From NCBI GenBank assembly GCA_017545095.1, contig JAFYCU010000115.1:1-28500 (forward strand): a stretch of 28,500 nt of DNA, in the 5' to 3' direction. Shown here in pieces: positions 8,058 to 28,211 of this stretch. Every line of letters starts with the position of its first letter. Position 1 is the first letter of the stretch. The position numbers and the translations under genes are program-made. Under the pieces are notes generated by a model. The model was given only the letters and a program-made list of their open reading frames with translations, searched no databases and had not been told where the DNA came from. This stretch comes from Muribaculaceae bacterium (GTDB lineage Bacteria > Bacteroidota > Bacteroidia > Bacteroidales > Muribaculaceae).

Positions 8058-8077
8058 TGAATGAAGTTTTTAGGTTA

Positions 8078-8175: not shown

Positions 8176-8191
8176 ATAGTGATATGGTTAA

Positions 8192-9106: not shown

Positions 9107-9158
9107 CGTATATACTTAACGTGAAACGACACCTATTTATTTGATAATCTTCTTTGTT

Positions 9159-10283: not shown

Positions 10284-10296
10284 TGTTGTGAATTGT

Positions 10297-11529: not shown

Positions 11530-11849
11530 GTCACTATTTTTTCATGCGGTTGTGACCATTTTACTGAAATTTGTGCTCAATTTACGGAAACAGTATTTTT
11601 TGAACGAAAAGAGATAGCGTCGGGTAACTGCTGCAGACATCCGCTCTGATTGCACACCTGCCGGAAAAGGGCACCAATGTTACAAAGCACGATGGCAATG
11701 ATTAGGCTGGTATAAAAATAACCAAGAGAAAATGCCGCTGCCCAGCCTGAATAGCAATGGCATAGAACTACCCTTGGCTGAATAGTGCCCAGTCATGAAC
11801 AAAAAACCTAATAATTATTAATTTCTTTCTTCCATTGAGAAAATATTGC
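11530..11849. other. Gene-free divergent intergenic region
   Basis: This 320-bp stretch separates the divergent flavodoxin-fusion and C10-protease genes. Neither strand holds an ATG-started gene I can support. A minus-strand frame (11577-11792) is open for about 71 codons and contains a hydrophobic run (SLGYFYTSLIIAIVLCNIGA), but it has no ATG. The stretch becomes A/T-rich toward the protease promoter. No repeats or hairpins stood out. Confidence 0.4.
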
Positions 11850-11857
11850 TATTTTTG
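11850..11857 (+). promoter_or_regulatory. Candidate -7 box for the C10 protease gene
   Basis: TATTTTTG fits TAnnTTTG and lies about 90 bp upstream of the ATG at 11946. A T-rich TTTCTTTC stands in the -33 region, but no exact TTTG. Confidence 0.45.
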
Positions 11858-11945
11858 CTGCCCGAAATGCTTTCACCTTTGTATTTTGGTGCGGGCGTGA
11901 ATTAAGTTGGGACAGACAACTTTTACTAATCAAATATTTCCAAAG

Positions 11946-14900
11946 ATGAGAAAATTCACTTTTGTTTTTGTGGCCATGGCACTGCTGGTGTCGCTTGCCG
12001 CTATGGGTGCACCTGTCAGCCGGCAGCAAGCGCTTGCCGAGGCCACGGCCTTTGTCCAGCAACGTCAGGTGTCTAACGGTGCGTTGCGCTTGGCAACCCA
12101 TGCCCCACGCTTTCAGGCAGCTGCCGACATGGGCTACTACTATGTGTTCAACATCGGCTCTGGAGGCTTTGTGATTGTGAGCGGCGACGACCGCACCAAT
12201 CCCGTGCTCGGCTTTTCGACCGAGGGTGCTTTCGACCCCGACCGCGTGCCGGTGAACATGCAGAATTGGCTCGATGGCTATGTTGGCCAAATAAAGGTCT
12301 TGGATGCGATGGACAATGCTCAGGCAGCCCAGGCTCTTGCCTTGCCGCGTCGCGCCACTGTGGTCGACACGCGCAACTCCATCGCCCCACTGCTTACCAC
12401 CAAGTGGGACCAGGCCACTCCCTACTGGAACGAGTGTCCCGAGTTTATGAGCATCAACGAGAATGGTGACACCATCGGTGAGCTGGCCTATGCCGGTTGT
12501 GTGGCCACGGCCATGGCACAGGTCATGAAGTTCCACAACTGGCCCGAGCAGACCACCAAGGTGATTCCGTCTTACGACTTCACTATCTCCAACGGCGACT
12601 TTACCTATTCCACTGTGCAGATGGAGGAACTGCCAGTGACCACTTTCGACTGGGCACACATGCGCGACAGCTACACCGGCAGCGAGGATGAGGTCTACAC
12701 CACTGCCGTGGCTCACCTTGTCTATTATGCTGGAGCATCGGTGAAGATGCAGTATGGACTCTCGGGTTCGGGAGCCTACACCGATGACATCCCCAAGGGA
12801 TTTACCGAGTATTTCGCCTACGACCGCAACACCATCCAAATCAAGTTCCGTACCGACTTCACCCAGCACGACTGGAACGAGCTCGTGTATCAAGAGCTCG
12901 CGCAGGGCCGCCCCATGATTTACAACGGCACGGCCGGGAGCGGCGGCGGACATTCGTTTGTGTGCGACGGATATGAGTATGGCGACTACTACCACATCAA
13001 CTGGGGATGGGGCGGCATGGGCAACGGCTACTTCCAGCTGGCCATCCTCAACCCGCACGAGAGCGGCATTGGCGGCTCCACCAGTGCCGAGGGCTACAAT
13101 ATGAAGCAGAACGTGATTATCGGCATTCAGCCCGGTGACCCCAATGACCCTGGCACCGAACCCGAGGTGGTGCACGCGCTCACGGCCACGGGCATCACCA
13201 CCGGCTTCTCGGGCGCACTCGAGCGCGAGAACCAAACCGAGGGATTCAGCATCTACAAGCGCAAGACCTTCAAAATCAATTTTGCCGACCATGTGGGCAC
13301 ACAAAAGAAATACGACGTAGGTGTGGCACTCTATGATACCGACATGAACTTTGTGCAGATGGTCATCAACCGGGGCACCTATGCCGTGGCCCTCACCTCG
13401 GCGCTTGGCAGCTACGAGAACCTGGGTGGGAACATCGATGCGCGCTATGCTGTCAAGTTTGCAGCAGGACTCATAGGCAACTACCGCATGGTGCCTGTGT
13501 ATCAGCTGCAAGGAACCACCGAGTGGAAACCCATGCTCGAAACCGACCGTTACTACCTTGATGTGGTGATTACCGCCACCACTGCCACCTTCACCGAGCA
13601 TCCCATGCTCGACCTGGTGGCCACCAACTACGAGTGTGTGGGCGGCGAGAAGGTGGGCAGCCCCGAGCAGGTGAACGTCACCCTGCACAACAACAGTGCC
13701 GACCGCTTCTTCGGCAACCTCTATTTGTGGTTCGGCAACCAGCAAATCGATGAGTTCTCTCAGTACACTACCACCTTGCAGGCCGAGGTGCTGCCCGGTC
13801 AGGACGCCGTGGTGACATTCAACCTTACCCCGCAGAATGCCGGCACGCAGCAGCTGCGCATCTCCTATGACGAGAGCGGTAACCAGTGGGTGAGCGGAAC
13901 GGGGTCGGTCACCGTGACCGAGACCGTGGAGAGCGTCATGAACCTGGGCGTGGCCATTGAGGCCGTGAATGCTACCGATGGCATCATCTACGACACCCAC
14001 GCGCGCTTCCGCGCCGATGTCACCAACAACGGCACGGGCGAGTACAACAAGTATGTGCTCGCGCCGCTGTTCCTCGTCCACAAGGATGAGCAGGGCAACG
14101 TGCTCGGCGGCGAGATGGTCACCTATAAGCAGAGTGCGCTCAGCCTGCAGCCCGGCGAGACCAAGACGCTCTATTTCGACTTCGACAACCTGGGCTACGA
14201 CCAAACCTATTCGATGAACCTCTATGGCCGCAACGAGAACGACGCTTTGGTCAACCTGGTGCAGGCGGGGCAATCGGTCCTCTACGATGTGCGTCACGGA
14301 CTGGTGGTGTGGACCTCCGACGACCTGGGAGAGGGGAGACCCGCAGCGGGCGACATCGTTATCCCCGACAGCGCCATCGCCGTGCGCCTCGAGGGGCTGG
14401 ACATCACAAGCGTCACGCCCAATGACAATCCTAACACCATCTATCTGATTGGGGCCGACGAGGTGGTGCCTGCCGGACTCGAAGGCTGCAACGTGGTGCG
14501 CGGCAACCAGGCCGAGTGCATCGTCCTCAAGGATGGTTATCCCTATTTCACCCCGCAGAGTTTTACCGCAGCACAAGTGACCTATGAGCGCAAGTTTGCC
14601 CAGTCGCGCCGTCCGGGCGAGTGTGCCGCCTGGAGCACCATTGTGCTGCCCTTTGCACCGCAGACCATCACCGCCAATGGTGAGACCCTCAACTTGTGCG
14701 ACGATGACAACACCGCTAGTGGACAGCTGTGGGTGGAACGGTTCGCGCAGGAAATCGACGGACTGCCGGCTTTTGAGTGCGTCACCGAGATGGAGGCCAA
14801 TGTGCCCTATCTTGTTGCCGCTGCGCAGCCCGTCGTGGGCAAGGCCGTGCTGTGGCAGGCCGCCAATGTGCAGCTCAAGGCCGAACCCATAGCCTATACC

Positions 14901-15284
14901 AGTGGCGAGAACTACCTGATGGCGGGCACCTTTGTGCCGCTGTTCATGCAGGCAGTGTATGTCTCGGACGATTACGAAAGCATTGCCACGCTCATGCGCA
15001 GCTGCCATGTGGCACCCTTCCGCGCCTATTTCAAGCGGCTGGGAGGCGATGTCGAAGATCATGGACAAATCAACTTCCCTGGCGATGGCTGGATGCCGCC
15101 GCTCACCCCCGGCGATGTGAACCTGGATGGCAACATCGACATCGATGATGTAAACGCGTTGGTGAACGTGATTCTGGAGCAAGTGGCTCCCGGTTTCTAT
15201 GGCGGCGATCCCGATGTGAACGGCGACGGCAGTATCGACATCGACGATATCAACGCCCTCATCAACATCATCCTCGCCAACTGA
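11946..15284 (+). CDS. Secreted C10 (streptopain-like) cysteine protease with dockerin-like C-terminus
   Basis: 1112 residues from the ATG at 11946. That start is chosen over an in-frame start 13 codons earlier because MRKFTFVFVAMALLVSLAAM is a clean signal peptide. Residues about 22-115 form a Spi-type propeptide (SRQQALAEATAFVQQ, GGFVIVSGDDRTNPVLGFS). The peptidase follows: catalytic Cys185 in YAGCVATAMAQVMKFH, catalytic His336 in GGGHSFVCDGY, then HINWGWGGMGNGYFQL. Beyond about 410 come Ig/CARDB-like segments (about 550-770) and a module typical of large Bacteroidales secreted proteins (about 820-1040, STIVLPFAPQTI). Residues 1056-1112 are two intact dockerin-like EF-hand loops, DVNLDGNIDIDDVN and DVNGDGSIDIDDIN. 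The enzyme is likely autoprocessed outside the cell and acts on host or dietary protein. Streptopain itself is about 400 residues. Confidence 0.95.
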   Translation: MRKFTFVFVAMALLVSLAAMGAPVSRQQALAEATAFVQQRQVSNGALRLATHAPRFQAAADMGYYYVFNIGSGGFVIVSGDDRTNPVLGFSTEGAFDPDRVPVNMQNWLDGYVGQIKVLDAMDNAQAAQALALPRRATVVDTRNSIAPLLTTKWDQATPYWNECPEFMSINENGDTIGELAYAGCVATAMAQVMKFHNWPEQTTKVIPSYDFTISNGDFTYSTVQMEELPVTTFDWAHMRDSYTGSEDEVYTTAVAHLVYYAGASVKMQYGLSGSGAYTDDIPKGFTEYFAYDRNTIQIKFRTDFTQHDWNELVYQELAQGRPMIYNGTAGSGGGHSFVCDGYEYGDYYHINWGWGGMGNGYFQLAILNPHESGIGGSTSAEGYNMKQNVIIGIQPGDPNDPGTEPEVVHALTATGITTGFSGALERENQTEGFSIYKRKTFKINFADHVGTQKKYDVGVALYDTDMNFVQMVINRGTYAVALTSALGSYENLGGNIDARYAVKFAAGLIGNYRMVPVYQLQGTTEWKPMLETDRYYLDVVITATTATFTEHPMLDLVATNYECVGGEKVGSPEQVNVTLHNNSADRFFGNLYLWFGNQQIDEFSQYTTTLQAEVLPGQDAVVTFNLTPQNAGTQQLRISYDESGNQWVSGTGSVTVTETVESVMNLGVAIEAVNATDGIIYDTHARFRADVTNNGTGEYNKYVLAPLFLVHKDEQGNVLGGEMVTYKQSALSLQPGETKTLYFDFDNLGYDQTYSMNLYGRNENDALVNLVQAGQSVLYDVRHGLVVWTSDDLGEGRPAAGDIVIPDSAIAVRLEGLDITSVTPNDNPNTIYLIGADEVVPAGLEGCNVVRGNQAECIVLKDGYPYFTPQSFTAAQVTYERKFAQSRRPGECAAWSTIVLPFAPQTITANGETLNLCDDDNTASGQLWVERFAQEIDGLPAFECVTEMEANVPYLVAAAQPVVGKAVLWQAANVQLKAEPIAYTSGENYLMAGTFVPLFMQAVYVSDDYESIATLMRSCHVAPFRAYFKRLGGDVEDHGQINFPGDGWMPPLTPGDVNLDGNIDIDDVNALVNVILEQVAPGFYGGDPDVNGDGSIDIDDINALINIILAN

Positions 15285-15337
15285 TGAAAACCACCGCTCA
15301 AGCCCCTGAGGACAGAACTTGAGAGCACCATCACCGA

Positions 15338-15387
15338 ATACACAAATCCGCAAGGACATAATAAAAGTTCCTTGCGGATTTGTGTAT
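15338..15387. terminator. 19-bp perfect inverted repeat between convergent genes
   Basis: 15338-15356 (ATACACAAATCCGCAAGGA) is the exact reverse complement of 15369-15387, with a 12-nt A/T-rich loop. It lies 54 bp past the protease stop and about 100 bp past the opposite gene's stop. This is the expected place for a shared bidirectional terminator. No T-run follows on either strand, so it may instead act as a 3'-end stabilising stem. Confidence 0.7.
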
Positions 15388-15489: not shown

Positions 15490-15753
15490 TCATTCCTTGT
15501 GCAGAATGATATTGATAAGCGCATTCACATCGGCGATATCGACCACGTTGTCGTCGTTAACCATCGCACGGTTGCCATAGTGGTCGGCATCGTCCTTGTG
15601 CAGGATGATGTTGATGAGCACATTCATGTCCCCAACGTCCACGAGTCCGTCGCCGTTCACATCGCCTCGCATGGGTGGCGTCTCGTCCATGACTCGGAAC
15701 GGCAGCGTGAACGCGGCCATGCACACGGCCCAGTCCTGTGTGGCCAGACTCAA
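15490..15753 (-). CDS. Dockerin-like C-terminal fragment, frameshifted from the upstream gene
   Basis: An 87-residue frame whose only upstream start is a TTG overlapping the preceding stop (TTGA). It carries RGDVNGDGLVDVGDMNVLIN, a good dockerin-like loop, and a second loop VNDDNVVDIADVN that lacks Asp at position 1, followed by ALINIILHKE. It has no signal peptide and could not function as a separate secreted protein. The frame is open upstream (AAIGSDLSLATQDWAV) into the end of the 15750-17312 gene, so it is read as that gene's C-terminus displaced by a -1 shift. A true indel, a sequencing error or low-level recoding are all possible; no slippery heptamer is visible. Confidence 0.7.
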   Translation of the reverse strand: MSLATQDWAVCMAAFTLPFRVMDETPPMRGDVNGDGLVDVGDMNVLINIILHKDDADHYGNRAMVNDDNVVDIADVNALINIILHKE

Positions 15754-17312
15754 GTCGCTGCCGATGGCTGCAGCTCATACATGGGCATGTGGCTGTCGCG
15801 GCCGCGGCTCAGCGTGTAGAGGGTGTTGCCCGTGGCGATGCATTTCTGCGCCGTGGGCATACTGCCGCCGCCAATCAGCGTCACCATCTCCTCGCCGGCA
15901 AGCGTGGAGGTATCAAGACGCATGAGCGTCACACTCTCGCCGCCAAAGGTGTAGCCGTAGATGCACACGTGGCTGCCGCTGGCATCCTCAAATGCGCCTA
16001 AGTAGCCCTGAATGCCGTTTTTCATCGTGGGGAACGCTGTTTTGCTGGTGGTGGCGGCCAGCCATTCGCCGGTGGCGGCATCGCATTTCACCACCACTCC
16101 CTCGCGCACGTTGCCCGTGGTGCTGGCCACCGTGTGCAGGCCATCGGTGAAGCTGCCGTTGAACTGACCGGTCAACCACAGGTCGTTGCCTGCCACGGTG
16201 AGCCGCGCACTTTGCACCACGGCATCGCGGCTTTGCACCGGCTCTCCCTGCCACTGGTGCAGCCATTGCACATGCAGGTCGGTGTCGAGGCAGGCGATGA
16301 CCACGCATTGCTGGTTGCTGAGCAGTGCCACCTGGTGGCCATCGAGGGCGATGGCACAGCTGCCATCGCTTGTGCCCATCGCAGTCATGGCCAGCCACAG
16401 CTTGCCTTGTGCCATTGTGAGCGAGGCATTACCCTCGGCACAGGCCACGCCGGTGGTGGTGAGCGTGCGCACCAAATTCCCTTGAGCATCGAATTTGGCG
16501 ATGAACATGTCGCCACGCGTTTGCTGTGAGTCGCCGTTCCACCCCTCGGTGTTGTGCGGCGTGAGTGTGTTGCCATCAATGGTGATGGGCACCACATAGC
16601 GGCCAGCCACATACACATGGCCTGAAGCATCGCTAGCCATGCCGCTGAGATAGAAGGCAGCACTTGTGTGGTCGGCGTGCTCGCCGGTGGCAGCTGCCAC
16701 TGGGGCATGGCTCACGTTAATCAATTTTGTCCATTCAATCACTCCTTCTTGGCTCACCTTGATCAGCAAACCTTGATACCACCGCTTGTCCTCTTCGTTG
16801 GCAAGTCTCCAATCCACGATGGTCTCCTGGCCGGTCGCATCTACAAAGCACAAGGGTTGTGTGCGCAGGTTGTCGGTGTGGCGAATCACCACCGAAAGCA
16901 TCACGCTACCGTCGGGCAGTGCCACCACGCCGCCGTTGTTCGAGGCGATATCGCCGCTGCTGCTGTAGACCGCCCACAGGAAACGGCCTTGCAGGTCTGT
17001 CTTCACGAGCGATAGATTGTTGTTGAAACCGTCTCCCTCATAGGGAGCACCTGTGGCGATGATCTCTCCATCGTAGTAGATGCTGGCTGTGGGGTCGGTA
17101 TATTCCTTTGGGATGCCACTCTCGCCTGCACCAACCGTCGTGCCTGTGCATGATAGGTAGTAGAGTGATTCATAGCTCTTGGTGAAAGCAATACCCATGT
17201 CGGGTGCCGCAGCATCGAGCAGCAGCGCCCATTGTGTGGTGGTTTGCGACAATTGGGCACTTGCCGATATGCTGGCTCCCAACACGCAAAGTGAAAAGAT
17301 TGATTTTCTCAT
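15750..17312 (-). CDS. Secreted beta-propeller-like repeat protein, C-terminally frameshifted
   Basis: 520 residues with signal peptide MRKSIFSLCVLGASISASAQ. The mature chain is built of recurring blade-like units around a hhKhDxxGxhxW pattern: VKTDLQGRFLWAV, IKVSQEGVIEWTKL, AKFDAQGNLVRTL, ACLDTDLHVQWLHQ, as in SBBP/PQQ-like propellers. It is a paralogue of the gene just upstream; compare DGNTLTPHNTEGWNGDSQQT with DGVTIEPHNVAGWNGNAQTT. The frame ends abruptly in MYELQPSAAT at a TGA. In the -1 frame the sequence continues without a break into a dockerin-like tail (15490-15753). Function is unknown; the propeller suggests binding at the cell surface or outside the cell. It probably follows the 19427 gene, separated by a hairpin. 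Confidence 0.8.
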   Translation of the reverse strand: MRKSIFSLCVLGASISASAQLSQTTTQWALLLDAAAPDMGIAFTKSYESLYYLSCTGTTVGAGESGIPKEYTDPTASIYYDGEIIATGAPYEGDGFNNNLSLVKTDLQGRFLWAVYSSSGDIASNNGGVVALPDGSVMLSVVIRHTDNLRTQPLCFVDATGQETIVDWRLANEEDKRWYQGLLIKVSQEGVIEWTKLINVSHAPVAAATGEHADHTSAAFYLSGMASDASGHVYVAGRYVVPITIDGNTLTPHNTEGWNGDSQQTRGDMFIAKFDAQGNLVRTLTTTGVACAEGNASLTMAQGKLWLAMTAMGTSDGSCAIALDGHQVALLSNQQCVVIACLDTDLHVQWLHQWQGEPVQSRDAVVQSARLTVAGNDLWLTGQFNGSFTDGLHTVASTTGNVREGVVVKCDAATGEWLAATTSKTAFPTMKNGIQGYLGAFEDASGSHVCIYGYTFGGESVTLMRLDTSTLAGEEMVTLIGGGSMPTAQKCIATGNTLYTLSRGRDSHMPMYELQPSAAT

Positions 17313-17340
17313 TGTAGATGTGGGTTTAAGGTAGCTTAAA

Positions 17341-17370
17341 ACCAGCCGCTCTATTTTTGGAACGGCTGGT
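17341..17370 (-). terminator. Hairpin between the two paralogous genes
   Basis: ACCAGCCG (17341-17348) pairs with CGGCTGGT (17363-17370) around a 14-nt loop. On the minus strand it is followed by TTTAAG. It lies 27 bp past the stop of the 19427 gene and 29 bp before the next ATG. It fits an intrinsic terminator or attenuator that would lower expression of the frameshifted paralogue. Confidence 0.6.
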
Positions 17371-17396
17371 AGGCATTGCTCAGGGTCAATTCATGT

Positions 17397-19427
17397 TCAT
17401 TTCACTGCCACTTTGCGTCCTCCGGCAATGTAGATGCCTGCGGGCAGGCCGGTCGTACTGGAGGTGCCACGGCGCACAAGGCGACCGTCCATAGTGTAGA
17501 CGTTGCCGTTATGGCTCGTTGCGGTGTTAAGGTCGGCCACACCGGTGGCGGTGCCTTCCTGCACCGTCACGGCGATGTTTTTCTTCACATTCGGGTTGCT
17601 GGCGCTGGTGGCGGTGACGATGGCGTTGCCCAGCACATCGCCTGGTGCACGGCGCAAGCCCTGAAGGCTGTTGGCCTCGGCGGCTGTGATGATGCCGTCG
17701 GCAACGGTCACCACGCCCTCGTTGCTCGAGGTCCAGATAATGTCGCTGTTGGCGGCTCCCTCGGGCATGATGGTGGCGGTGATCTGGCCGCTCTCGCCGG
17801 GGGTGAGCTCCAGCTGTTCGGCATCGAGCACGATGTCTTGCACGGCACCCATCGGCACGCGGTAGGCCGACTGACCCCAGTTGTAGGCGGCACTGCTGTG
17901 GGTGATGTCGCTGTTCAGGAACGTGCAACTCTCGTTTTTGTTGCCGAAGCGGTTCATCACATACAGGTAGTCGCCGTCGGTGACGAGCGACTGGCCGTCG
18001 CACGAACCAGTGGCGAGTTGCACCTGATCGACAACTTCAAGGCTCTCCATATTGTATTTGTACAGCATCAGCTCGCTGCCGAAGCTGGCCGAGGGGGTGA
18101 GGCCGCGCTCGATGGCGTATAGGCTGCCGTCGCAACCCTCATAGGCTCCGAAGAAACCATGCTGCATCTGCATCGGGCCGGTGGCCAGCACGCTGGCTTT
18201 CACAGCCTCGCCGTTGCTGGCATCGAACTGTAACAGCCACGACTGACGCGCTTTGTTGGTGGGCTGGTTGGTGATGTTGTTGCCGTCGATCTGGATACCA
18301 TACTTGGCCGACCCCATCAGGTAGATGTGGTTGCCGGCCACGGTCATCGTGGGCATCTGCCAGGCGCTGCCGCTCACCGTGCACTCGTGCAGCTTGAGCC
18401 ACGCCACGTTCAAGTCGGTGTCCAGCTCGGCAAGCATCCAGCTGGGGTTGGTGGTGGATGGGGTGACTTGCTGGCTGCCCAGACCGAGGGACGTGCCTGC
18501 CAGACCGGTAACCCATGCGGCCATGTAGAGCTTGTTGCCCACCACCTTCAGGCTGCGTGCGCTTTCCTGAGTGGACTCGCCCTCGGTGACCAGATGCTTC
18601 ACATAGTTGCCCTGAGCGTCAAACTTGATGACGAACAGGTTGCCTACGGTGGTCTGTGCGTTGCCGTTCCAGCCAGCCACGTTGTGCGGCTCGATGGTCA
18701 CGCCATCAACGTTCATCGTGGCGCACATCAGGCCGCCAATGTAGATGTTTCCGCTGTTGTCCACGTCGAGGGCGTAGGTCTTCACGCCCTGCCCGATGTG
18801 GCGGCTGCTCTGGCTCCAGGCGGGATAGGTGGCTTCGTCGGCCGTGGCGTTCGCCTCTATCTGGCGGGTCCACTCGATGCCGCCATCGGCATCCACCTTG
18901 ATCACTGCGGCGCGGTAGCTCCGTTCGCTCACCGTCCAGTCGATGGCGAAGTCCGTTCCCTGTGCATCGGTGATGGTGATGCTTTCGCCCAGGTGTCCCT
19001 CGGTGTGGCGCAGGTTAACCAGCAGCACGGCACCGCCGTCGGGGGTGGAGGCCACCCAGTTCTCGTTGCTGCCCGACTCGCCGTTGGTCTGTGCGAGTTT
19101 CCACACCACGTTGCCGTCGTTGTCGAGCTTCATCATCAGCAACCCCTGGTTGGCTCCGTTGCCGCTGTAGTCGATGCCACTGGCCACCACCTCATCGCCA
19201 AACATGATGTTCTGGCTGCTGCTGGTCGAACCTGCCTGGCCCACGACGTACAGGCCGCCGTCCGGCGACAACACCATCTGGTTGCCTTGCGTGGTGAGGC
19301 TTTGGCCACCATCGCTGTTGGTCACAAACTTGGCCCATAAGGTCTGGGTGTCGCCAAGCGACTGACCAGAAACCGGCATCGATGACGATGCCAGCGCCAA
19401 TGCTAAGAGAGTAATGATTTTTTTCAT
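17397..19427 (-). CDS. Secreted beta-propeller-like protein with Big_2 domain and Por-type sorting tail
   Basis: 676 residues. The signal peptide MKKIITLLALALASSSMPVS is cleaved near SGQ (21). Residues about 25-520 carry propeller-type units (MKLDNDGNVVWKL, IKVDADGGIEWTRQ, IKFDAQGNYVKHL, AELDTDLNVAWLKL). About 528-622 is a bacterial Ig-like Big_2 domain (LTPGESGQITATIMPEGAAN, IIWTSSNEGVVTV). The last 50 residues resemble the C-terminal secretion tail common in Prevotella-like species: NGNVYTMDGRLVRRG then LPAGIYIAGGRKVAVK. It is therefore probably secreted by the type IX (Por) route and held at the surface. No enzymatic motif is visible. It has a near-perfect promoter at 19470-19500 and is divergent from the receptor operon. 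Confidence 0.85.
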   Translation of the reverse strand: MKKIITLLALALASSSMPVSGQSLGDTQTLWAKFVTNSDGGQSLTTQGNQMVLSPDGGLYVVGQAGSTSSSQNIMFGDEVVASGIDYSGNGANQGLLMMKLDNDGNVVWKLAQTNGESGSNENWVASTPDGGAVLLVNLRHTEGHLGESITITDAQGTDFAIDWTVSERSYRAAVIKVDADGGIEWTRQIEANATADEATYPAWSQSSRHIGQGVKTYALDVDNSGNIYIGGLMCATMNVDGVTIEPHNVAGWNGNAQTTVGNLFVIKFDAQGNYVKHLVTEGESTQESARSLKVVGNKLYMAAWVTGLAGTSLGLGSQQVTPSTTNPSWMLAELDTDLNVAWLKLHECTVSGSAWQMPTMTVAGNHIYLMGSAKYGIQIDGNNITNQPTNKARQSWLLQFDASNGEAVKASVLATGPMQMQHGFFGAYEGCDGSLYAIERGLTPSASFGSELMLYKYNMESLEVVDQVQLATGSCDGQSLVTDGDYLYVMNRFGNKNESCTFLNSDITHSSAAYNWGQSAYRVPMGAVQDIVLDAEQLELTPGESGQITATIMPEGAANSDIIWTSSNEGVVTVADGIITAAEANSLQGLRRAPGDVLGNAIVTATSASNPNVKKNIAVTVQEGTATGVADLNTATSHNGNVYTMDGRLVRRGTSSTTGLPAGIYIAGGRKVAVK

Positions 19428-19469: not shown

Positions 19470-19500
19470 CAAAATTACTGCCACTCCATTTCATGCCAAA
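19470..19500 (-). promoter_or_regulatory. Bacteroidetes-type promoter of the 19427 gene
   Basis: On the minus strand TTTG (19497-19500) precedes TAATTTTG (19470-19477) with a 19-bp spacer, an exact consensus match. The -7 box lies about 43 bp upstream of the ATG. Confidence 0.8.
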
Positions 19501-19547
19501 TCGCTAAAACATGTGATTTTTGTCATGCGAAATAGCCGAATGTGGGG

Positions 19548-19579
19548 ATTGGGCAGGATTGAGGATAGTAGTAATTTTG
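19548..19579 (+). promoter_or_regulatory. Bacteroidetes-type promoter of the receptor/M16 operon
   Basis: ATTG (19548-19551) and TAATTTTG (19572-19579) are separated by 20 bp, within the allowed spacing. The -7 box is 26 bp upstream of the ATG at 19606. It is divergent from, and about 50 bp away from, the promoter of the 19427 gene. Confidence 0.7.
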
Positions 19580-19605: not shown

Positions 19606-22383
19606 ATGAGAGTGATTTCTATTATAACTGCCATCCTGTGTGTGCTGTCGGCACACAGCCAGAGTGCCAAGCTCAGTGGTGTGGTCACCGACAATGGCAC
19701 GGGCGAGCCGGTGGCGTTTGCCACGGTGGTGGTGCAGCCTGGCGCACATGCCGTGGCCACCGATGTCCAAGGGCGATTCATGTTCTCGCTTCAGCCAGGT
19801 AACTATACGGTGAACGTGACCTTTGTGGGCTATGAGCCGGTGTCGCGGCAAGTTGCTGTTAACAGTGACCAACACATCGCCGTATCCCTCAAGGAGAACA
19901 CCCGTGTGCTTCAGGAGGTGGTGGTCACCGCCAAGGAGAATACAGGCATGACCAGCGGCAGCCGCATCGACCGCGATGCCATGGCTCACCTGCAGCCCAC
20001 CAGCCTCACCGACTTGATGGAATTGCTACCAGGCAACATCAGCCACGACCCCGATATGGGCAGCGTGAACAGCATCAAGCTGCGCGAAACCGGCACACTG
20101 GGTGCCACGGGCACAGCCACGGCGAGCGACGACTACAACATCTCGGCCCTGGGCACGCTGTTTGTGGTGGACGGTGCATCGGTCAATGGTGATGCCAACA
20201 TGCAGCAGGTGCCGGGAGCCGATGCCGCTTCGGCCGAGCACCGGCGCGACATGACCAACAAGGGTGTGGACATGCGAACCATCAGCACCGACAACATCGA
20301 GAGTGTGGAGGTGGTGCGGGGCATTCCCAGTGCCGAATATGGCAACCTCACCAGCGGCATGGTCAACATCAAGCGCATTCGCCGTGCCACACCGTTCACG
20401 GCACGTTTCAAGGCCGATGAGTACAGCAAACTCGTGGCCGTGGGTAAGGGATTCCACCTTGGGGCGTCGGACCACATCATGAATGTGGACGCTGGCTATC
20501 TTGACTCGAAGGTGGACCCGCGCAACAATCTGGAGAATTACAAGCGGCTCAACCTGTCGGCACGGCTCAACCTGCGATGGAACGCTCCCGCCCTCGTGGC
20601 CGGGTGGGTGACGGGCATCGACTACACCGGCTCGTTTGATGATGCCAAAACCGACCCTGACCTCAGTTATAATAAGGTGAACGAATACCGCTCACGCTAC
20701 AACCGCTGGGCGTTCACCAGCGATTTCTCCCTCACATCGGTGAAATGCCATTGGCTCAAAAGCATCAATCTGAACACCAGCGTGAGCTATCAGCACGACC
20801 GCTTGGAACGCCGCAAGCAGGTGGCCCCACAGCGTGCTTCGGTGGCTCCCACCACGATGGCCGAGGGGGTGAGCGACGGGCAATACCTGCTGGGCGAGTA
20901 CCTAGCCGACTTCGTGAGCGATGGACGGCCGCTCAACGTGTTTGTGAAACTCAAAGGCGAGGGAAACGACACGATTGGTGCACTCACACAGGCCTACAAG
21001 GCGGGACTGGAGTGGACCGTGTCGAAAAACTTTGGCGACGGGCAGGTCTACGACCTGACGCGGCCTCTGTCGGCCTCTTGGACAACCCGTCCCCGCGCCT
21101 ATCGCGACATCCCCGCGCTGCATGTGCTCTCGTTCTATGCCGAGGACAATCTTTCCGTTGCGCTTCCCGCCGGGCATAGCTTTGAGTTGCAGGCCGGTGT
21201 GCGCTCGCAACAAATGCCAAATCTTGACAACCGTTACACATTGGCACGAAAGGTCTATATCGACCCACGTGTCAACGCCAAGTGGTCGTTTCCCGGCATC
21301 GCGTTGGGCAACCGCACGCTGAAGCTGCATCTCGCTGGCGGCTACGGACTCACCACCAAGATGCCTACCATAGCCTACCTGTATCCGCAGGTGCATTACA
21401 CCGACTTCATTCAGCTCAACTATTATGATGTCAACCGTCCTGCGGAGCTGAGCCGCATCAGCCTGCGCACCTATATCGATGATGTGACCAATTATCAACT
21501 TTGTGCCGCACGCAACCACAAGTGGGAGGTGCGACTGGGAGCGCAGATTGGCAAGAACACGCTGTCGGTCACCTATTTCAGCGAGAAGATGACCAGCGGC
21601 TACCGCTATTCGAGTCTTTACCGGCCTTATGCCTACACGAAATATGACGCCGACGCCATCAATCCGCTCACGCTCACCCGGCCGCCCGAGCTCGACGACT
21701 TGCCCAGCACCCAGGTCAGTGAACTGGCGGGCTATAGCGTTGCCGCCAACGGCAGCCGGCTCGATAAGCAAGGTGTGGAGTTTACCCTCACCACCGCGCG
21801 CTGGCAGCCGTTGCGCACGGCGCTCACGCTCACTGGAGCCTGGTTTCGTTCCACCTACAGCAATTCACAGATGCTCTACGACCCCGTGAGTGTGGTGGTC
21901 GACGACCGAGCTGTGAGCGACAGTTACATTGGATACTACCGCATGGATGATGGACGCGTCAACGAGCAACTGAACACCAACCTGATGTTCGACACGCAAA
22001 TTACCCGCTGGGGATTGGTGTTTACCACCTCGTTGCAGTGCATGTGGTATGTGAGCACGCGCAAGCTGTGGCAGAACGGCGTGCCGGAATCCTATCTTGA
22101 CGTGGCCGACGGGCAGCTTCACCCCTACACCAGTGCTTCGATGGCCGACGAGATGTTGCAGCACCTGATGCGCAGCTACAACGACGACGTGTTCCGCCGC
22201 CAGCGCGTGCCCATGGCACTCTATGTGAATCTCAAAGCCACCAAAACCATTGGCAAGCACCTCAAGGTGGCGGTCTTTGCCAACCGACTGCTTGACCATT
22301 TGCCCGACTATCGCAGCAATGGCTTGATGGTGCGCCGGGTATCCGACCCGTATTTCGGAATGGAATTGAATTTTAACCTCTAA
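19606..22383 (+). CDS. TonB-dependent outer-membrane receptor (CarboxypepD_reg-like type, not SusC)
   Basis: 925 residues. The signal peptide is MRVISIITAILCVLSAHSQS. A carboxypeptidase-regulatory-like domain spans about 21-100 (LSGVVTDNGTGEPVAFATVV, GNYTVNVTFVGYEPVSRQVA). It is followed by a TonB-box-like LQEVVVTAKEN and a plug, about 120-265, containing TLFVVDGASVNG and NIESVEVVRGIPSAEYGNLT. A 22-strand-type barrel runs to the end (FGMELNFNL). There is no SusD partner. Instead, a DUF4876 lipoprotein starts 56 bp downstream, followed by a barrel and an M16 peptidase. That arrangement suggests uptake of a metal complex, peptide or protein rather than a glycan. First gene of the operon, with its own promoter. 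Confidence 0.93.
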   Translation: MRVISIITAILCVLSAHSQSAKLSGVVTDNGTGEPVAFATVVVQPGAHAVATDVQGRFMFSLQPGNYTVNVTFVGYEPVSRQVAVNSDQHIAVSLKENTRVLQEVVVTAKENTGMTSGSRIDRDAMAHLQPTSLTDLMELLPGNISHDPDMGSVNSIKLRETGTLGATGTATASDDYNISALGTLFVVDGASVNGDANMQQVPGADAASAEHRRDMTNKGVDMRTISTDNIESVEVVRGIPSAEYGNLTSGMVNIKRIRRATPFTARFKADEYSKLVAVGKGFHLGASDHIMNVDAGYLDSKVDPRNNLENYKRLNLSARLNLRWNAPALVAGWVTGIDYTGSFDDAKTDPDLSYNKVNEYRSRYNRWAFTSDFSLTSVKCHWLKSINLNTSVSYQHDRLERRKQVAPQRASVAPTTMAEGVSDGQYLLGEYLADFVSDGRPLNVFVKLKGEGNDTIGALTQAYKAGLEWTVSKNFGDGQVYDLTRPLSASWTTRPRAYRDIPALHVLSFYAEDNLSVALPAGHSFELQAGVRSQQMPNLDNRYTLARKVYIDPRVNAKWSFPGIALGNRTLKLHLAGGYGLTTKMPTIAYLYPQVHYTDFIQLNYYDVNRPAELSRISLRTYIDDVTNYQLCAARNHKWEVRLGAQIGKNTLSVTYFSEKMTSGYRYSSLYRPYAYTKYDADAINPLTLTRPPELDDLPSTQVSELAGYSVAANGSRLDKQGVEFTLTTARWQPLRTALTLTGAWFRSTYSNSQMLYDPVSVVVDDRAVSDSYIGYYRMDDGRVNEQLNTNLMFDTQITRWGLVFTTSLQCMWYVSTRKLWQNGVPESYLDVADGQLHPYTSASMADEMLQHLMRSYNDDVFRRQRVPMALYVNLKATKTIGKHLKVAVFANRLLDHLPDYRSNGLMVRRVSDPYFGMELNFNL

Positions 22384-22439
22384 CCCAATTTGAATAAAGA
22401 AATAGATAAGATTCTTATCACTACCAAAATAGAGTTGTT

Positions 22440-23786
22440 ATGGTTGTATTAAGTTGTTATAGTTGTTTGAAATCTCTGCGCGTTGCGGTACAGCGCATTG
22501 CGAAATTACGCATGATGCATTGTGCATTGTGCATTGTTTTAGCCCTTGCCGCGTGCGACGATACGCTTGACCAGTCGCTTGTGCACTACACGCCATCGGT
22601 CACCATCACCATGCCCGAGGGCATGGACGACGCCGAGTTCCTCACCGAGCAATGGGAGGTGAAGGACGTGAGTTCGGGGCGCACCACCACCTTTAGCAAC
22701 CGAAGCGACATCGCGCTCAAGGCGGGGCTTTACGACTTGTTGCTCGACGCCACCGTGCGCGTGCCGGGCGATTCGCTGCCATCACGCCACCTCACCGGCT
22801 ATGCGCAGTCGGTGCAAATTGGAGCTAAGAATGCCAACCAAGTGGCCCTCACCGTGTTTGAAACTCGGGTGGCCGATGACTTTGTAATCGAAGAAATATT
22901 CTTCGCAGGCACTTTGCAGCCGTCGGGCAATCAATACTATGGTGACGATTATGTGAAAATATACAATAACACCGACCATGTGCTCTATGCAGACGGGCTC
23001 ACGCTGTTGGAGTCGAAGTTTGTCACCACCGAGAAATTCGACTATTATCCCGATATCATGAACGAATGCATGTCAGTTCAGGCATTATATACCATTCCCG
23101 GCAGCGGCACCGACCACCCGGTGAAGCCGGGCGAGAGCCTGCTCATTGCCGACACCGGCATCGACCATCGTGTGGCCAATCCCAATTCGTTCGACCTGAG
23201 CAATGCCCAATTTGAATGGTACGACCTGTCGACCCAGCCGGCTCACTTGGACATCGACAGCCCCACTGTGCCTAACCTCGACCGGTGGTATTGTTACACG
23301 CATTCTTTCTTTGTGTTGCACAACCGTGGCTTCCGGGCTTGGGCACTGGCACGCATCCCGATGGAAAAGGATGAATATCTGCGTCAGAACCTTTATCGTT
23401 ACAATTATGTGGTTGTCGTGGCTGCAGGCACCTATCCCATGAGCCAGCAGGCCTATAAAGTGCGCAACGAGTGGATTGTGGATGCCGTGAATTGTAGTGT
23501 CGAGGCCATGCGGGTTTGGAACGTCACCGATGCTTCGCTCGACTGCGGATGGACCCATTGCGGCAATATGGATCACGACAGGACGCGTTACTTTCACAGT
23601 GTGCGGCGCAAGATGCTCTATGTGCGCGACGGACGTGCCGTGCTGCAGGACACCAACAACTCCACCGAGGACTTCAATCCCGACTGCGTTCCCAGCGTGG
23701 TTGAGCTTCAGGGAACGGCCATTGATGTGAATGGAACACCTTGCACACAACTCACCTGGGACGGCGTGCAGCCTCGCCAGCGATAA
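22440..23786 (+). CDS. DUF4876 family lipoprotein
   Basis: 448 residues in the longest frame. The signal region reads RMMHCALCIVLALAAC, with the lipobox Cys followed by DD, so it is an outer-membrane or surface lipoprotein. The body matches DUF4876: VIEEIFFAGTLQPSGNQYYG, YVKIYNNTDHVLYADGL, MSVQALYTIPGSGTDHPVKP, HSFFVLHNRGFRAWALARIP, VDAVNCSVEAMRVWN and TLDWG-like segments. The function of the family is unknown. The start is uncertain: ATG at 22440 gives a long n-region, while ATG at 22512 gives a signal without basic residues. The signal coding region contains three tandem 7-bp units. The second gene of the receptor operon, it probably forms a surface accessory to the upstream receptor. Confidence 0.85.
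   Translation: MVVLSCYSCLKSLRVAVQRIAKLRMMHCALCIVLALAACDDTLDQSLVHYTPSVTITMPEGMDDAEFLTEQWEVKDVSSGRTTTFSNRSDIALKAGLYDLLLDATVRVPGDSLPSRHLTGYAQSVQIGAKNANQVALTVFETRVADDFVIEEIFFAGTLQPSGNQYYGDDYVKIYNNTDHVLYADGLTLLESKFVTTEKFDYYPDIMNECMSVQALYTIPGSGTDHPVKPGESLLIADTGIDHRVANPNSFDLSNAQFEWYDLSTQPAHLDIDSPTVPNLDRWYCYTHSFFVLHNRGFRAWALARIPMEKDEYLRQNLYRYNYVVVVAAGTYPMSQQAYKVRNEWIVDAVNCSVEAMRVWNVTDASLDCGWTHCGNMDHDRTRYFHSVRRKMLYVRDGRAVLQDTNNSTEDFNPDCVPSVVELQGTAIDVNGTPCTQLTWDGVQPRQR
22516..22536 (+). repeat. Three tandem copies of a 7-bp unit inside the lipoprotein signal sequence
   Basis: TGCATTG is repeated three times without interruption at 22516-22522, 22523-22529 and 22530-22536. The unit is not a multiple of three, so any change in copy number would shift the frame relative to an upstream start. 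It encodes part of MMHCALCIVL. Confidence 0.9.
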
Positions 23787-23823
23787 TGCTGCACCCCAAA
23801 AACACCATAGCATCCAGTATCGT

Positions 23824-25350
23824 ATGAAAAAGCTTTTTCCAGAAAGGTTGCTGCTCATGCCATTGTGCTTGGCCTATTGTGCGTGTTGCCTTGGGCAACA
23901 GTTGACCGACAGCGTGGTTCTTGACCGTGTGCGACAGCGCAGCCTCCTGAGTGAGTCGGCACTGCAACTCGTGTGGCAGAACCCGGTCGTGGCTCAGTGG
24001 CAGCGCAATTATTCAATCAGCGACGTCGCCATCGGCTACCAGTGGCGACACGAGTCGCAGGCGGTGGTGGCTCAGCTGGGTAATCATGATGCGCAAGGCA
24101 CATTCGATGCCGAAACCCACATCAAACACCGCACCAGAACCTTGTGGGGACGCGCCCACTACGACAAAGGTTCAACGCGCGGCATCGCATGGAACGAGAC
24201 CAGCGACATCCACATGGTTTACCCTTATCTCATGGCCGACAGTGCGGTGCTGGCACCGATGCGGCACGAACGCTATGGCTTTGGCGGTGGTTATGCCGAC
24301 CATCGCGGCCGTTGGCAATGGGGCGGCGAGGTTGACTATCGCGCCGGACACTACTACCGCAACGTGGATCCGCGACCGCGCAACATCACGGCTTGCCTCA
24401 CCGTCAAGGGCGGGGTGGGGTGGTCGTTGTCGAGCCGTTATGTGGCGGCAGCGGCTCTGGCCTATCAGCGTTACAAGCAGACCAACGATGTGGTATTCTA
24501 TAGCGAGCTGGGAAAGGAGAAACTCTTTCATCTCACTGGCCTTGCCAACGATTATGGCCGCTTTGCCGGTGCGGGCGATGAGAGTTTCTACCGTGCGCAT
24601 CAGTGGCAGGTCATGGTGGGTGTGCATCCGTTTGCCAACCAAGGATTGTCTGTTGCCGCCAGGGCGAGCCGCATGTCGCTCGATAAGGTGCTCACATCGC
24701 TCAACAAGTTGCCGTTGGCACACATCGCTCAATGGGCTGTGGATGGCGAAATGGCCTGGCTCGAGCATTCGTGGAACACCAGGATGCGTGTTGAAGCATC
24801 GCGTCGCGTGGGACGTGAGAATATCTTCGGCGACCCGGCGGCTTCGGTCTATCCGATGATAGGCTCACTCGACATGTATCATGAGAACCGCTTTGCCGCG
24901 TGCCTCGATGGCGTGTGGCAGCACCGGTGGCGCAATGTCGACCTGGGGGTGAAACCCGCTGTGGACTACGCGCACGTCAACACCATCTATGCCGACCCGG
25001 CTGGCCGCCAATGCATCAACAGCCTCACCCCGGCCCTCGCACTGCGCGGCGGCTACCGCACACCATCCACCTATAGTACGCTGCATGTGCAATTCGCGTG
25101 GACTCACCCCGTGGAGCAAGAGTTGATGCTCAGCGGGGTGAAGGCGGAACTCACCGGGTTGCAACAGGTGCTGGAAAGCGACCACCGCTATGCATCCCAC
25201 AACCGCACGGCACTCAATGCTGCACTGGCCGTGCATGTGGCACTCAGCAACCGTTATGCCCTTCAAGCTGCTGTTGACTGGTGCTTCACACGTTACACGG
25301 CTGGCGCCGTAGCCCATAGGCTCAAAAGCAGTGTGGCAATTATCTTTTAA
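23824..25350 (+). CDS. DUF6850 family outer-membrane beta-barrel protein
   Basis: 508 residues from the ATG at 23824, chosen because MKKLFPERLLLMPLCLAYCA is a signal sequence cleaved near LGQ; the longer frame adds 31 residues overlapping the previous gene. The chain alternates polar and hydrophobic residues with many aromatic strand ends and finishes VAIIF, as a barrel should. Segments such as HYYRNVDPRPRNIT, VGWSLSSRYVAAAALAYQRY and LGKEKLFHLTGLANDYGRFA fit the DUF6850 family known beside DUF4876. Function is unknown. It sits 37 bp after the DUF4876 gene and 47 bp before the M16 peptidase, so it is clearly in the same operon. It could be an export or ligand-release channel, or a surface scaffold. 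Confidence 0.8.
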   Translation: MKKLFPERLLLMPLCLAYCACCLGQQLTDSVVLDRVRQRSLLSESALQLVWQNPVVAQWQRNYSISDVAIGYQWRHESQAVVAQLGNHDAQGTFDAETHIKHRTRTLWGRAHYDKGSTRGIAWNETSDIHMVYPYLMADSAVLAPMRHERYGFGGGYADHRGRWQWGGEVDYRAGHYYRNVDPRPRNITACLTVKGGVGWSLSSRYVAAAALAYQRYKQTNDVVFYSELGKEKLFHLTGLANDYGRFAGAGDESFYRAHQWQVMVGVHPFANQGLSVAARASRMSLDKVLTSLNKLPLAHIAQWAVDGEMAWLEHSWNTRMRVEASRRVGRENIFGDPAASVYPMIGSLDMYHENRFAACLDGVWQHRWRNVDLGVKPAVDYAHVNTIYADPAGRQCINSLTPALALRGGYRTPSTYSTLHVQFAWTHPVEQELMLSGVKAELTGLQQVLESDHRYASHNRTALNAALAVHVALSNRYALQAAVDWCFTRYTAGAVAHRLKSSVAIIF

Positions 25351-25397
25351 TCCCCTTGTTGACTAATATAATCTGTTGAAAACAAAAAATTGATATA

Positions 25398-28211
25398 ATG
25401 AAAAGCTTTAGAATCCTATTCTTGGCCCTCGTGGCCTTCTCGGCCCTGGCGCAGGCTGCCGAGGTTCCTGTCGACCCGGCTGTGCGCATGGGCACACTGC
25501 CCAATGGCTTGACCTACTATGTGCGCCACAACAACTTCCCCGAGCATCATGCCGACTTCTTCATCGCCCAGCGCGTGGGCTCGATTCAGGAGGAGGACAA
25601 TCAGCGCGGATTGGCCCATTTTCTTGAGCACATGTGCTTCAACGGCACGAAACACTTTCCGGGCAATACGCTCATCAGCTACATGGAGTCAATCGGGGTG
25701 AAATTCGGGGCCAACCTCAATGCCTACACCTCGACCGATGAAACCGTCTACAACATCAGCGATGTGCCCACCCACCGGCGCTCGGTGCTCGATTCCTGCT
25801 TCCTGGTGTTGAGCGACTGGAGCCACGATTTGTCGCTAAAAGGCAAAGATATTGACGAGGAACGGGGGGTGATCGAGGGTGAGTGGCGGCATCGCACCTC
25901 GGCCGCCAACCGAATGCTGGAACGTGCATTGCCCACGCTGTATCCCGGCAGCCGCTATGGCCAGCGCATGCCCATCGGCACCATGGATGTGGTGAAGAAC
26001 TTCAAGCACAAGCAACTGCGCGACTATTACAAGAAATGGTACCACCCCAGCAACCAGTGCATTATTGTGGTGGGCGACATCGAGCCCGACTATGCCGTGG
26101 CCAAGATTCATGAGCTCTTCGCCGGAGTCAAGCCTCCCAAGCACGCGGCCCCGGTGGTGCGCGAGTCTGTCCCCGACAATGCTTCGCTCATTGCCACTGT
26201 GCAGACCGACCCCGAGCAACCGTCGACGAGTGTGCGCTTGCTCTTCAAGCACGACGACCTCACAGCCGGTGTCGATGGCGAACAATGGCTCAGAAACGAC
26301 TATTTGAATTTTGCCGTAACAACAATGCTCAATGGGCGATTTGTCGACCTCAAGCAACTGCCCGAGGCTCCGTTCACCCATGTGTCGGTCACCGACCGCG
26401 ACTACCTCATCAGCCGCACCCGGCAGGCCCTGCAATTCACCGCCTTGAGCAAGAGCGGTCAGGCGGCTTCCACCATGCAGTGGATGGCGCGAGAGGTGAA
26501 ACGTGCCACCGAGCATGGCTTCACCGAGGCCGAAATGTTGCGGGCGCGAAACACCTACGACGGCGCACTCAACAAGCTCTACCGCGAGCGCACACGCTAT
26601 TCCAACACACGATATGCGCGTGATTATGTGCGTGCCTATCTTGATGGCGAACCCATTCCCAGCATCGATGACAACTGCGCCATCATGCGCCGAATCATCG
26701 ACGAGGTATCGCTCCAAGAGGTGAACGACCATCTGCGCCGCTTGGTGAGCGACACCGACCGCAACGTGGTGCTCATGGCCTACGCTCCCGACAAGGCCGG
26801 TGAGCCGGTACCCACCGAGCAGGCGCTTATCGACGCGTTCCACGCCGGCCGTGCCGAGCGCGTGGAGGCTTACGTCGACACGCTGCACGCCACCACGCTC
26901 CAGCTTCACGATGTGTGGGAAGGCACCATTGTCGACGAAAAACCCGTCCCCGAGTTCGATGCCACCGAGTGGACACTGTCGAATGGCATTCATGTTATGG
27001 TGAAGCACACCCTTATCGCTCCGGGCGAGGTGGTCATTGCCGGCGCAGGGCCGGGCGGACTGTCGCAGAACTATCGCCCCGAAGATGCCCCCTCAATCAA
27101 GGCTTTCGCGCAGCTGGCCGGCACTTTTGCCTTTGGCGGCATTTCGAGCAGCAACCTCAAGAAGTATTTTGCCGGGAAAGATGCCACCATGCGCACGTTT
27201 TTCAGCAAAACCGAGGAGGGCTTCCAGGGAGCCGCCTCACGGCGCGACTTGGAGACGGCCTTTCAGTTGCTCTATATGCGGCTCACGGCCCCGCAGAAAG
27301 ACGAGCGCGCCTATGCCGCCTGGCTCGAGAACCAGCGCAGCAGCCTCGCCAACCGGGCCGCCGACCCGAAATATGAGTTTGCCGACTCGATTTTCGCCGG
27401 GGTCTATGACCACCACCCCTTGGCAGGCGAACGTCTCACCAACGACGAGATTGAGCGCACCAACATCGACCGCGTGCTGGAGATTTACCGCGACCGCTTT
27501 GCCGATGTGAGCGATATGACGGTGTATCTGGTTGGCGACTTCGACCTCGACTCGCTGCGCCTGCTCACACAGCGCTACCTCGCCTCACTGCCTGGTGGCG
27601 GCCGACATGAGCAGCCGCGCGACATCGGGTTCCGTGTGTTCACGGGCGAGCACGACAACGCTTGGAGCCGCGCCATGCAGAACCCGCAGGACAAGGTCTA
27701 TTATTTCTGGACCGGGGCTTGCGACTACACCCTGCGCAATGCCTTGCTGGCGCAAATCACCAGCCAGGTGTTCAAGGAGATTTTCCGCGACGAGATTCGC
27801 GAGAAACGTGGCTGGACCTACCACGTGGACACGCATTGCAGCATCACCACCGACTACAACGGCAACGACCAGCCCGTGATTTTCATGCCGCTCAACGTCA
27901 CGGTCACCGCCGGCAAGGCACAAGACACGCGGCAAGTCGTCGAGCAGGCCATGGCCGCTGTGGTGGAGCACGGCATCACCAGCCAGCAACTTGACAAGGC
28001 CAAGGAATATCTGCGCAAGGTGCACGACGAAAGCCTCAACGACAACACCTACTGGATGGACATCATGCGACGCTACACCAAATTTGGCATCAATTTCGAC
28101 CGCGACTACCTCGTCACCCTCGATGCCATCACCACCCACGAGGTGCAACAGTTCGTGGCCGACCACATTGGCACCGGCGGCCGCCTACGCCTAACCATGA
28201 CCGCGGAATAA
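25398..28211 (+). CDS. Secreted M16 (pitrilysin/insulinase) family zinc metallopeptidase
   Basis: 937 residues with signal peptide MKSFRILFLALVAFSALAQA. The N-terminal M16 half has the inverted zinc motif HFLEH (H74, E77, H78) in GLAHFLEHMCFNGTKHFPGN. The third ligand is probably Glu155 in DIDEERGVIEGE, 77 residues on as in pitrilysin. The C-terminal half is a second, inactive M16 pair lacking HxxEH but keeping the substrate-binding RDEIREKRGWTYHV. Two homologous halves in one chain form the clam-shell chamber that degrades peptides or small proteins. The signal peptide places it in the periplasm. As the last gene of the receptor operon, it resembles in logic the Fus system of Pectobacterium, in which a TonB receptor imports ferredoxin and an M16 protease cleaves it; that analogy is inference. 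Confidence 0.95.
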   Translation: MKSFRILFLALVAFSALAQAAEVPVDPAVRMGTLPNGLTYYVRHNNFPEHHADFFIAQRVGSIQEEDNQRGLAHFLEHMCFNGTKHFPGNTLISYMESIGVKFGANLNAYTSTDETVYNISDVPTHRRSVLDSCFLVLSDWSHDLSLKGKDIDEERGVIEGEWRHRTSAANRMLERALPTLYPGSRYGQRMPIGTMDVVKNFKHKQLRDYYKKWYHPSNQCIIVVGDIEPDYAVAKIHELFAGVKPPKHAAPVVRESVPDNASLIATVQTDPEQPSTSVRLLFKHDDLTAGVDGEQWLRNDYLNFAVTTMLNGRFVDLKQLPEAPFTHVSVTDRDYLISRTRQALQFTALSKSGQAASTMQWMAREVKRATEHGFTEAEMLRARNTYDGALNKLYRERTRYSNTRYARDYVRAYLDGEPIPSIDDNCAIMRRIIDEVSLQEVNDHLRRLVSDTDRNVVLMAYAPDKAGEPVPTEQALIDAFHAGRAERVEAYVDTLHATTLQLHDVWEGTIVDEKPVPEFDATEWTLSNGIHVMVKHTLIAPGEVVIAGAGPGGLSQNYRPEDAPSIKAFAQLAGTFAFGGISSSNLKKYFAGKDATMRTFFSKTEEGFQGAASRRDLETAFQLLYMRLTAPQKDERAYAAWLENQRSSLANRAADPKYEFADSIFAGVYDHHPLAGERLTNDEIERTNIDRVLEIYRDRFADVSDMTVYLVGDFDLDSLRLLTQRYLASLPGGGRHEQPRDIGFRVFTGEHDNAWSRAMQNPQDKVYYFWTGACDYTLRNALLAQITSQVFKEIFRDEIREKRGWTYHVDTHCSITTDYNGNDQPVIFMPLNVTVTAGKAQDTRQVVEQAMAAVVEHGITSQQLDKAKEYLRKVHDESLNDNTYWMDIMRRYTKFGINFDRDYLVTLDAITTHEVQQFVADHIGTGGRLRLTMTAE

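Follow-up and report, generated by a model that had tools for sequence, protein, structure and literature searches.

A Bacteroidales operon joining a TonB receptor, DUF4876 and DUF6850 to a PqqL/FusC-type M16 protease: a candidate iron importer

Does a gene for a periplasmic M16 peptidase that follows genes for a TonB receptor and two proteins of uncharacterised families form one import system with them, or does it happen to lie beside an unrelated receptor? The question arises in a 28,500-nucleotide stretch of DNA from a Muribaculaceae-like genome (the window), which contains the four genes as an operon. Our preferred reading, with a probability of about one half, is an iron-responsive outer-membrane importer whose substrate would be cut by a dedicated PqqL/FusC-type protease. 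We infer the substrate, its import and its cleavage. The features are as follows.

15750–17312, minus strand: second cluster c1 paralogue, 520 aa (c1 profile, 559.2 bits)
17397–19427, minus strand: divergent cluster c1 protein, 676 aa (c1 profile, 617.8 bits; Pfam Big_2)
19470–19477, minus strand: -7 element TAATTTTG of the divergent gene (motif match)
19498–19519, minus strand: predicted operator of the divergent c1 gene, 12 of 18 consensus positions, 42 bp before its -7 element
19530–19551, plus strand: predicted operator of the receptor operon, 12 of 18 positions, 42 bp before the -7 element
19572–19579, plus strand: -7 element TAATTTTG of the receptor operon (motif match)
19606–22383, plus strand: TonB-dependent outer-membrane receptor, 925 aa (Pfam CarboxypepD_reg and TonB plug)
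22440–23786, plus strand: DUF4876 lipoprotein (Pfam PF16215, E = 2.5e-70)
23824–25350, plus strand: DUF6850 outer-membrane beta-barrel, predicted (Pfam PF21012, E = 2.2e-83)
25398–28211, plus strand: M16 metallopeptidase, 937 aa, last gene of the operon (Pfam Peptidase_M16 and M16_C)

The ORF coordinates agree with the original prediction of gaps of 56, 37 and 47 bp, the 37-bp gap presuming that DUF6850 starts at 23824 in a frame open from 23731. DUF4876 probably starts at 22512 (MMHCALCIVLALAAC) instead, because the lipoprotein signal fits better from there; the first gap would then be 128 bp. Median gaps across relatives are 20, 10 and 23 bp (n = 136, 139 and 69). The arrangement is beyond chance because the same gene order recurs in related loci, the closest among the genomes compared being a goat-rumen MAG (L001; 79% identity in DUF4876, 81% in M16). 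Downstream of the M16 gene, no gene family is shared by most loci.

Bacteroidales promoters carry a -7 element, TAnnTTTG. The operon promoter fits this type and not sigma-70, for which a scan gave 6 sites against 5.0 in shuffles. Counted within 200 bp upstream of each gene, with the expectation taken from shuffles, the element precedes 114/138 receptor genes (15.6 expected) and 62/95 c1 genes (7.4 expected), 3/134 DUF4876 genes (7.0 expected), 2/209 DUF6850 genes (7.0 expected) and 3/85 linked M16 genes (3.6 expected); these counts and the operator counts below pool two locus sets (best-80 and systematic) that overlap in contigs and are not independent. The M16 gene lacks a -7 promoter of its own and is therefore most simply transcribed from the receptor promoter. 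A single transcription unit, as originally proposed, is supported by the short gaps and by a -7 element that is present at the receptor and at chance level at M16.

The earlier account of the operon omitted two divergent c1 genes (15750–19427). Judged by eye, the 676-aa product has a signal peptide and a T9SS-like tail; the 520-aa paralogue scores 25 bits against an SBBP-propeller model with a cut-off of 400, and by such weak model matches c1 proteins appear propeller-like. A c1 gene lies in the region in 57/69 close-group loci of the best-80 set, 17/27 of the systematic set and 0/95 distant-group loci, where the close/distant split is by receptor score and was chosen after the data were seen. 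Prevotella-type loci (L046, L062, L066 and L076) have c1 between DUF6850 and M16.

The rest of the window is occupied by other functions. Its start carries a SusC/SusD-type pair on the minus strand (816–5089; SusD at 816–2357, TonB receptor at 2360–5089), followed on the same strand (5399–11475) by HAD, PNPOx-like, glyoxalase, FMN-reductase, AraC-regulator, alpha/beta-hydrolase and fused cyclophilin-like/flavodoxin genes. At 11946–15281 the plus strand encodes, by Pfam, a C10-family cysteine peptidase with an I69 inhibitor/propeptide-type domain and a dockerin-like tail. The opposite minus-strand ORF (11808–15359, 1183 aa) had no match in a Pfam scan and is probably spurious, the plus strand being the likely coding one.

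The receptor scores 79.6 bits against the SusC/RagA model TIGR04056 (cut-off 368). Searches of PDB sequences with phmmer and a 14-sequence profile returned neither FusA/YddB nor haem receptors among the matches, and matches at E <= 0.001 covered only N-terminal parts of other receptors. At the sensitivity of these searches the receptor has no detectable sequence kinship to FusA/YddB, and weaker kinship is possible. In DUF4876, the lipoprotein-type cysteine is invariant in 23/23 aligned sequences, the window's own among them, and is directly followed by two acidic residues. A cysteine with two acidic residues is a surface-export motif of lipoproteins, which suggests that DUF4876 is exported to the cell surface. 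Its predicted structural model is poor (pLDDT 55.9). AlphaFold2 models DUF6850 with 18 long strands and N-terminal helices (pLDDT 92.8, pTM 0.87), and its C-terminal residue is Phe; it is predicted with high confidence to be an outer-membrane barrel, and fold searches returned generic barrels only. In Bacteroides nordii (L047 11319–12898, also L171) DUF6850 is split into two overlapping reading frames.

Two sets of loci show how these genes travel together. The first was the best 80 of 188 loci from a scan of the genome collection. In it, the receptor is present in 77 (the other three are cut by contig ends) and DUF6850 in all 80 (displaced in L072). Downstream of these genes, 53 loci carry M16, 14 carry an ABC-type module and 5 have neither of the two; no locus has both, and 8 are cut off. 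For the systematic set, regions were drawn by PF16215 matches, which occur in 22/119 genomes from the order of G013, 54/119 from the family of G001 (53 over the cut-off) and 38/151 from the family of G012. Neighbouring matches of one region were merged (G254, G065, G095 and G102), genomes drawn twice (G037 and G069) were counted once, and a 33.7-bit piece with a stop (G259:C8) and M16 rows below 850 aa were left out. Among the 135 regions with a usable DUF4876, 129 have DUF6850 and 126 have the receptor (>100 bits). Receptor, DUF4876 and DUF6850 are a conserved core.

Members of the ABC-type module are c5 (ABC ATPase), c6 (permease-like), c7 (lipoprotein-like), c8 (DUF4857) and c9 (PepSY_TM); a locus was scored as ABC with at least two of c5, c6 and c8. 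Downstream of the core, the 136 systematic regions have M16 in 32, ABC/PepSY/DUF4857 in 48, neither in 50 and both in 0, with 5 cut off by contig ends and 1 unusable (L169, no usable DUF4876). Fisher's test for exclusivity in this set gives 2.7e-8; Fisher values, 1e-8 to 1e-18 overall, ignore shared ancestry. DUF4857 occurs in 0/38 M16-type genomes, the window's own genome not being among them. Over the cut-off in the two family draws, it is found in 0/31 M16-type genomes, 36/60 other DUF4876 genomes and 1/179 genomes without DUF4876, with G139 (23.3 bits, below cut-off, no DUF4876) scored negative. These genome counts pair the DUF4876 and DUF4857 draws, which were taken to hold the same genomes from their equal counts and identical handles.

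The position after the core is thus a swappable module, M16 or the ABC set and never both in the loci examined, and the window has M16 in place of the ABC ATPase/PepSY/DUF4857 module. This exclusive swap is the strongest new result. It points to two exchangeable routes for releasing iron from imported material. M16 adjacency (19/60 Muribaculaceae, 12/53 Bacteroidaceae and 1/23 further regions of the order) extends to several lineages and is not peculiar to this one, as the original prediction needed; the core mostly does without M16, however (98/130 classifiable systematic loci). Gene order varies in some Bacteroidaceae loci, with a full DUF4876 after DUF6850 (e.g. L177 and L184). L123 looks intermediate: at 8694–10959, the ABC-module protein c7 is encoded next to an M16 gene that is truncated where the contig ends.

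A connection to iron comes from published relatives of the core. According to part of the text of PMC10434189, PG1019-22 of P. gingivalis rise 20.8- to 214.5-fold and BT3625-33 of B. theta 36.7- to 128-fold in iron depletion, and for another DUF4876 locus, BT1933-39, the rise is no more than 3.5- to 7.4-fold. The available text of that paper does not use the term M16; published iron induction covers relatives, one with ABC-type genes, and M16-type loci are not among them. For P. gingivalis, the accessible portion of PMC10470040 places a DUF4876 gene among strongly haemin-dependent genes, and that of PMC10101095 has PG_1019 and PG_1020 up 4- to 9-fold in one listed comparison. DUF4876 had been expected to be a new part in an iron context, which it is not: its relatives are already iron-stimulon genes in the available part of PMC10434189. 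In the literature searched, DUF4876 is mentioned in three papers, DUF4857 in one and DUF6850 in none, and the titles and abstracts found for M16, TonB and Bacteroidales do not describe this system.

Several known systems resemble the operon in part. PG1019-22 and BT3625-33 have a TonB receptor with DUF4876, matched via the annotation in the part of PMC10434189 at hand, where the BT3625-33 locus further contains genes for ABC, PepSY and DUF4857 proteins, as the alternative module does. The window has the adjacent TonB receptor and DUF4876 of the BT3625-33 kind, here with DUF6850, but M16 instead of the ABC/PepSY/DUF4857 module. SusCD is likewise a TonB receptor with a lipoprotein, although here the lipoprotein is DUF4876 rather than SusD and the receptor falls far under the SusC/RagA cut-off. 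A further comparison is with BT2063-65 of B. theta, the xus xenosiderophore locus. This locus also combines a TonB receptor, a companion and a PepSY protein and is iron-induced, but in the portion of PMC10434189 available its companion is DUF4374, and DUF6850 and M16 are absent from the locus as listed.

A parallel in gene content is Fus/YddAB-PqqL of Pectobacterium and E. coli, which also has a TonB receptor and a PqqL/FusC-type two-half M16 in one operon. In both cases the protease is sporadic and redox genes occur where it is absent (cytochrome c peroxidases there, PepSY/ABC here). The part of PMC6793856 available reports Fus-like receptor–M16 clusters in Proteobacteria, cytochrome c peroxidases where FusC is lacking, and no growth defect of E. 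coli pqqL and yddB deletions in iron-limited LB, a result that speaks against the iron reading. Unlike those Proteobacteria, the present lineage is Bacteroidales, its receptor lacks detectable FusA/YddB kinship, and two extra outer-membrane parts, DUF4876 and DUF6850, are present. The Fus-like reading of the original prediction therefore holds for the protease in the operon but not for the receptor, and import and cleavage of a protein for iron would be its conjectural part.

The same material admits an importer of haem or a siderophore whose M16 would act not on imported protein cargo but on carrier protein or on debris of surface proteins, degrading haemoglobin fragments or turning over c1 and DUF4876. 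The haemin-responsive DUF4876 gene of P. gingivalis (available text of PMC10470040) and the PepSY_TM gene of the alternative module are in keeping with this explanation, but the receptor searches of PDB sequences brought no haem receptor and a protein in the periplasm is still required; we regard this explanation as unlikely.

Regulation gives a second line of evidence on the signal. A palindrome, AAATACCTAnnnnTAGGTATTT, occurs in receptor promoters and starts exactly 42 bp before the -7 element. Its consensus was built from receptor promoters that were themselves later counted; c1 promoters were not used. At least 10 of 18 positions match at offset 42 in 92/115 receptor and 44/62 c1 promoters, compared with 0–2 at control offsets of 35 and 50. 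At least 14 match in 28/74 M16-type and 18/49 ABC-type receptor upstream regions and in 3/680 shuffles. One palindromic operator, a predicted site, is common to both module types and to the divergent c1 promoters.

Allowing at most two mismatches, the palindrome with the -7 pattern has 79 matches in 12 genomes and a reversed control 4; operator and -7 box mark a small regulon of 79 sites in these Bacteroidales. Of these sites 40 were taken (L307–L346), 36 had an ORF of at least 60 aa close behind, and 10 first genes were scanned with Pfam. Genes behind the operator include feoAB (L343, with a homologue in G002, L344), TonB receptors, PepSY_TM and an ABC ATPase, as well as a cysK-like PLP enzyme (seven homologous loci, one scanned), a Rex-like regulator (three, one scanned), a Cys/Met enzyme and a hydrolase. 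The closest genome, G001, has no match at this threshold other than feoAB. The link between feoAB and the receptor in G001 and G002 is on weaker sites because the two-mismatch pattern misses their receptor operons, whose sites are degenerate like the window's; operator left arms vary in the window's subclade. Because cysK-like, Rex-like and other genes lie behind the operator too, the regulator may sense more than iron, which makes iron a good but not exclusive candidate signal.

Import of peptides as a source of carbon and nitrogen, with iron limitation a mere co-signal, would accommodate the operator before cysK-like and Cys/Met-metabolism genes and the C10 peptidase gene at 11946–15281. It fits poorly with the strong iron-depletion induction of relatives (available part of PMC10434189) and with the finding that a version of this operator stands before feoAB in the close genomes G001 and G002, and we consider this reading improbable.

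The remaining question is whether the protease is a partner of the core. Its signal peptide was judged by eye. HFLEH and ERGVI are zinc-ligand motifs of M16 peptidases; the sequence agrees with the earlier statement that HFLEH is intact, and ERGVI follows it. HxxEH and ERG are kept in 70/71 linked M16 homologues, the 71st having HxxEH and ERS. Against PDB, the protein matches 9ldy over nearly its full length (640 bits), E. coli PqqL (235 bits), FusC (6b03 and its kin, 140 bits), half-size M16s (80 bits) and pitrilysin (33 bits). Among characterised proteases it is by sequence closest to PqqL/FusC, of the single-chain two-half type.

When 67 M16 proteins were placed in a tree, the 46 linked ones of Muribaculaceae type grouped together (SH-aLRT 100), to the exclusion of 17 unlinked full-length and 4 Prevotella-type linked M16s. 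As judged from this tree, the operon M16 is a paralogue separate from the unlinked M16s. A single origin of all linked M16s is not rejected here (AU p = 0.151); in a wider tree (26 linked and 26 unlinked after thinning) a single linked clade is rejected (AU p = 7.3e-5), also when the longest branch is removed (AU p = 1.15e-5). Near-identical rows were thinned before the wider tree and the DUF6850 tree, and the later M16 trees omit two odd rows (L106 and L110). Mapped onto a DUF6850 tree of 135 rows (192 before thinning), the M16 state requires 9 changes, and supported branches make at least 5 of these unavoidable; some M16 loci have ABC loci as sisters, as M16-type L123 has ABC-type L122. M16 was probably linked to the core more than once; the M16 trees could also be read as a single gain after which some copies became unlinked. 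Given the separate clade and repeated linkage, M16 is best regarded as a dedicated partner that was probably acquired more than once. That it is a true partner, as first proposed, agrees with its separate clade, its occurrence in several lineages, its lack of a -7 element and its absence from every examined locus with the alternative module.

A housekeeping M16 that removes signal peptides or misfolded proteins from the periplasm and has no more than a neighbour in the receptor is quite improbable: the genomes searched do carry unlinked full-length M16 genes, several of them PqqL-like, and the best PDB match, 9ldy, carries only the name 'Peptidase, M16 family', but the linked M16s fall in their own clades, follow the same core in separate lineages, lack their own -7 element and are in no case accompanied by the DUF4857 module.

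For the iron importer with a dedicated protease, the following sequence of events may be proposed. Under iron or haem limitation, a repressor would leave the operators at 19530–19551 and 19498–19519. Surface DUF4876 and the secreted c1 proteins would bind an iron-bearing cargo (a peptide, a small protein or a fragment of a haemoprotein), which the receptor would import with TonB energy, and the DUF6850 barrel may be a second passage. The periplasmic M16 clam-shell would enclose and cut the cargo, and the freed iron or haem would be taken onward by FeoB or other transporters. In relatives, the PepSY/ABC module would achieve release by reduction and transport, not proteolysis. A wider proposal, which we make tentatively and at rather below even odds, is that a Bacteroidales import system for iron-bearing protein or peptide arose independently of Fus, as a three-part core with an interchangeable release cartridge, either M16 digestion or PepSY/ABC/DUF4857 reductive extraction, swapped repeatedly and never together in the genomes examined.

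The uncharacterised families DUF4876, DUF6850 and DUF4857 gain a common logic from this arrangement, one import core with two alternative release modules, and they are found in loci whose iron induction ranks among the strongest in gut and oral Bacteroidales. If the proposal is true, the DUF4857, PepSY and ABC genes would be candidates for a reductive or transport equivalent of the protease, and iron piracy from proteins or peptides, represented by the proteobacterial Fus system, would also be a trait of common gut commensals.
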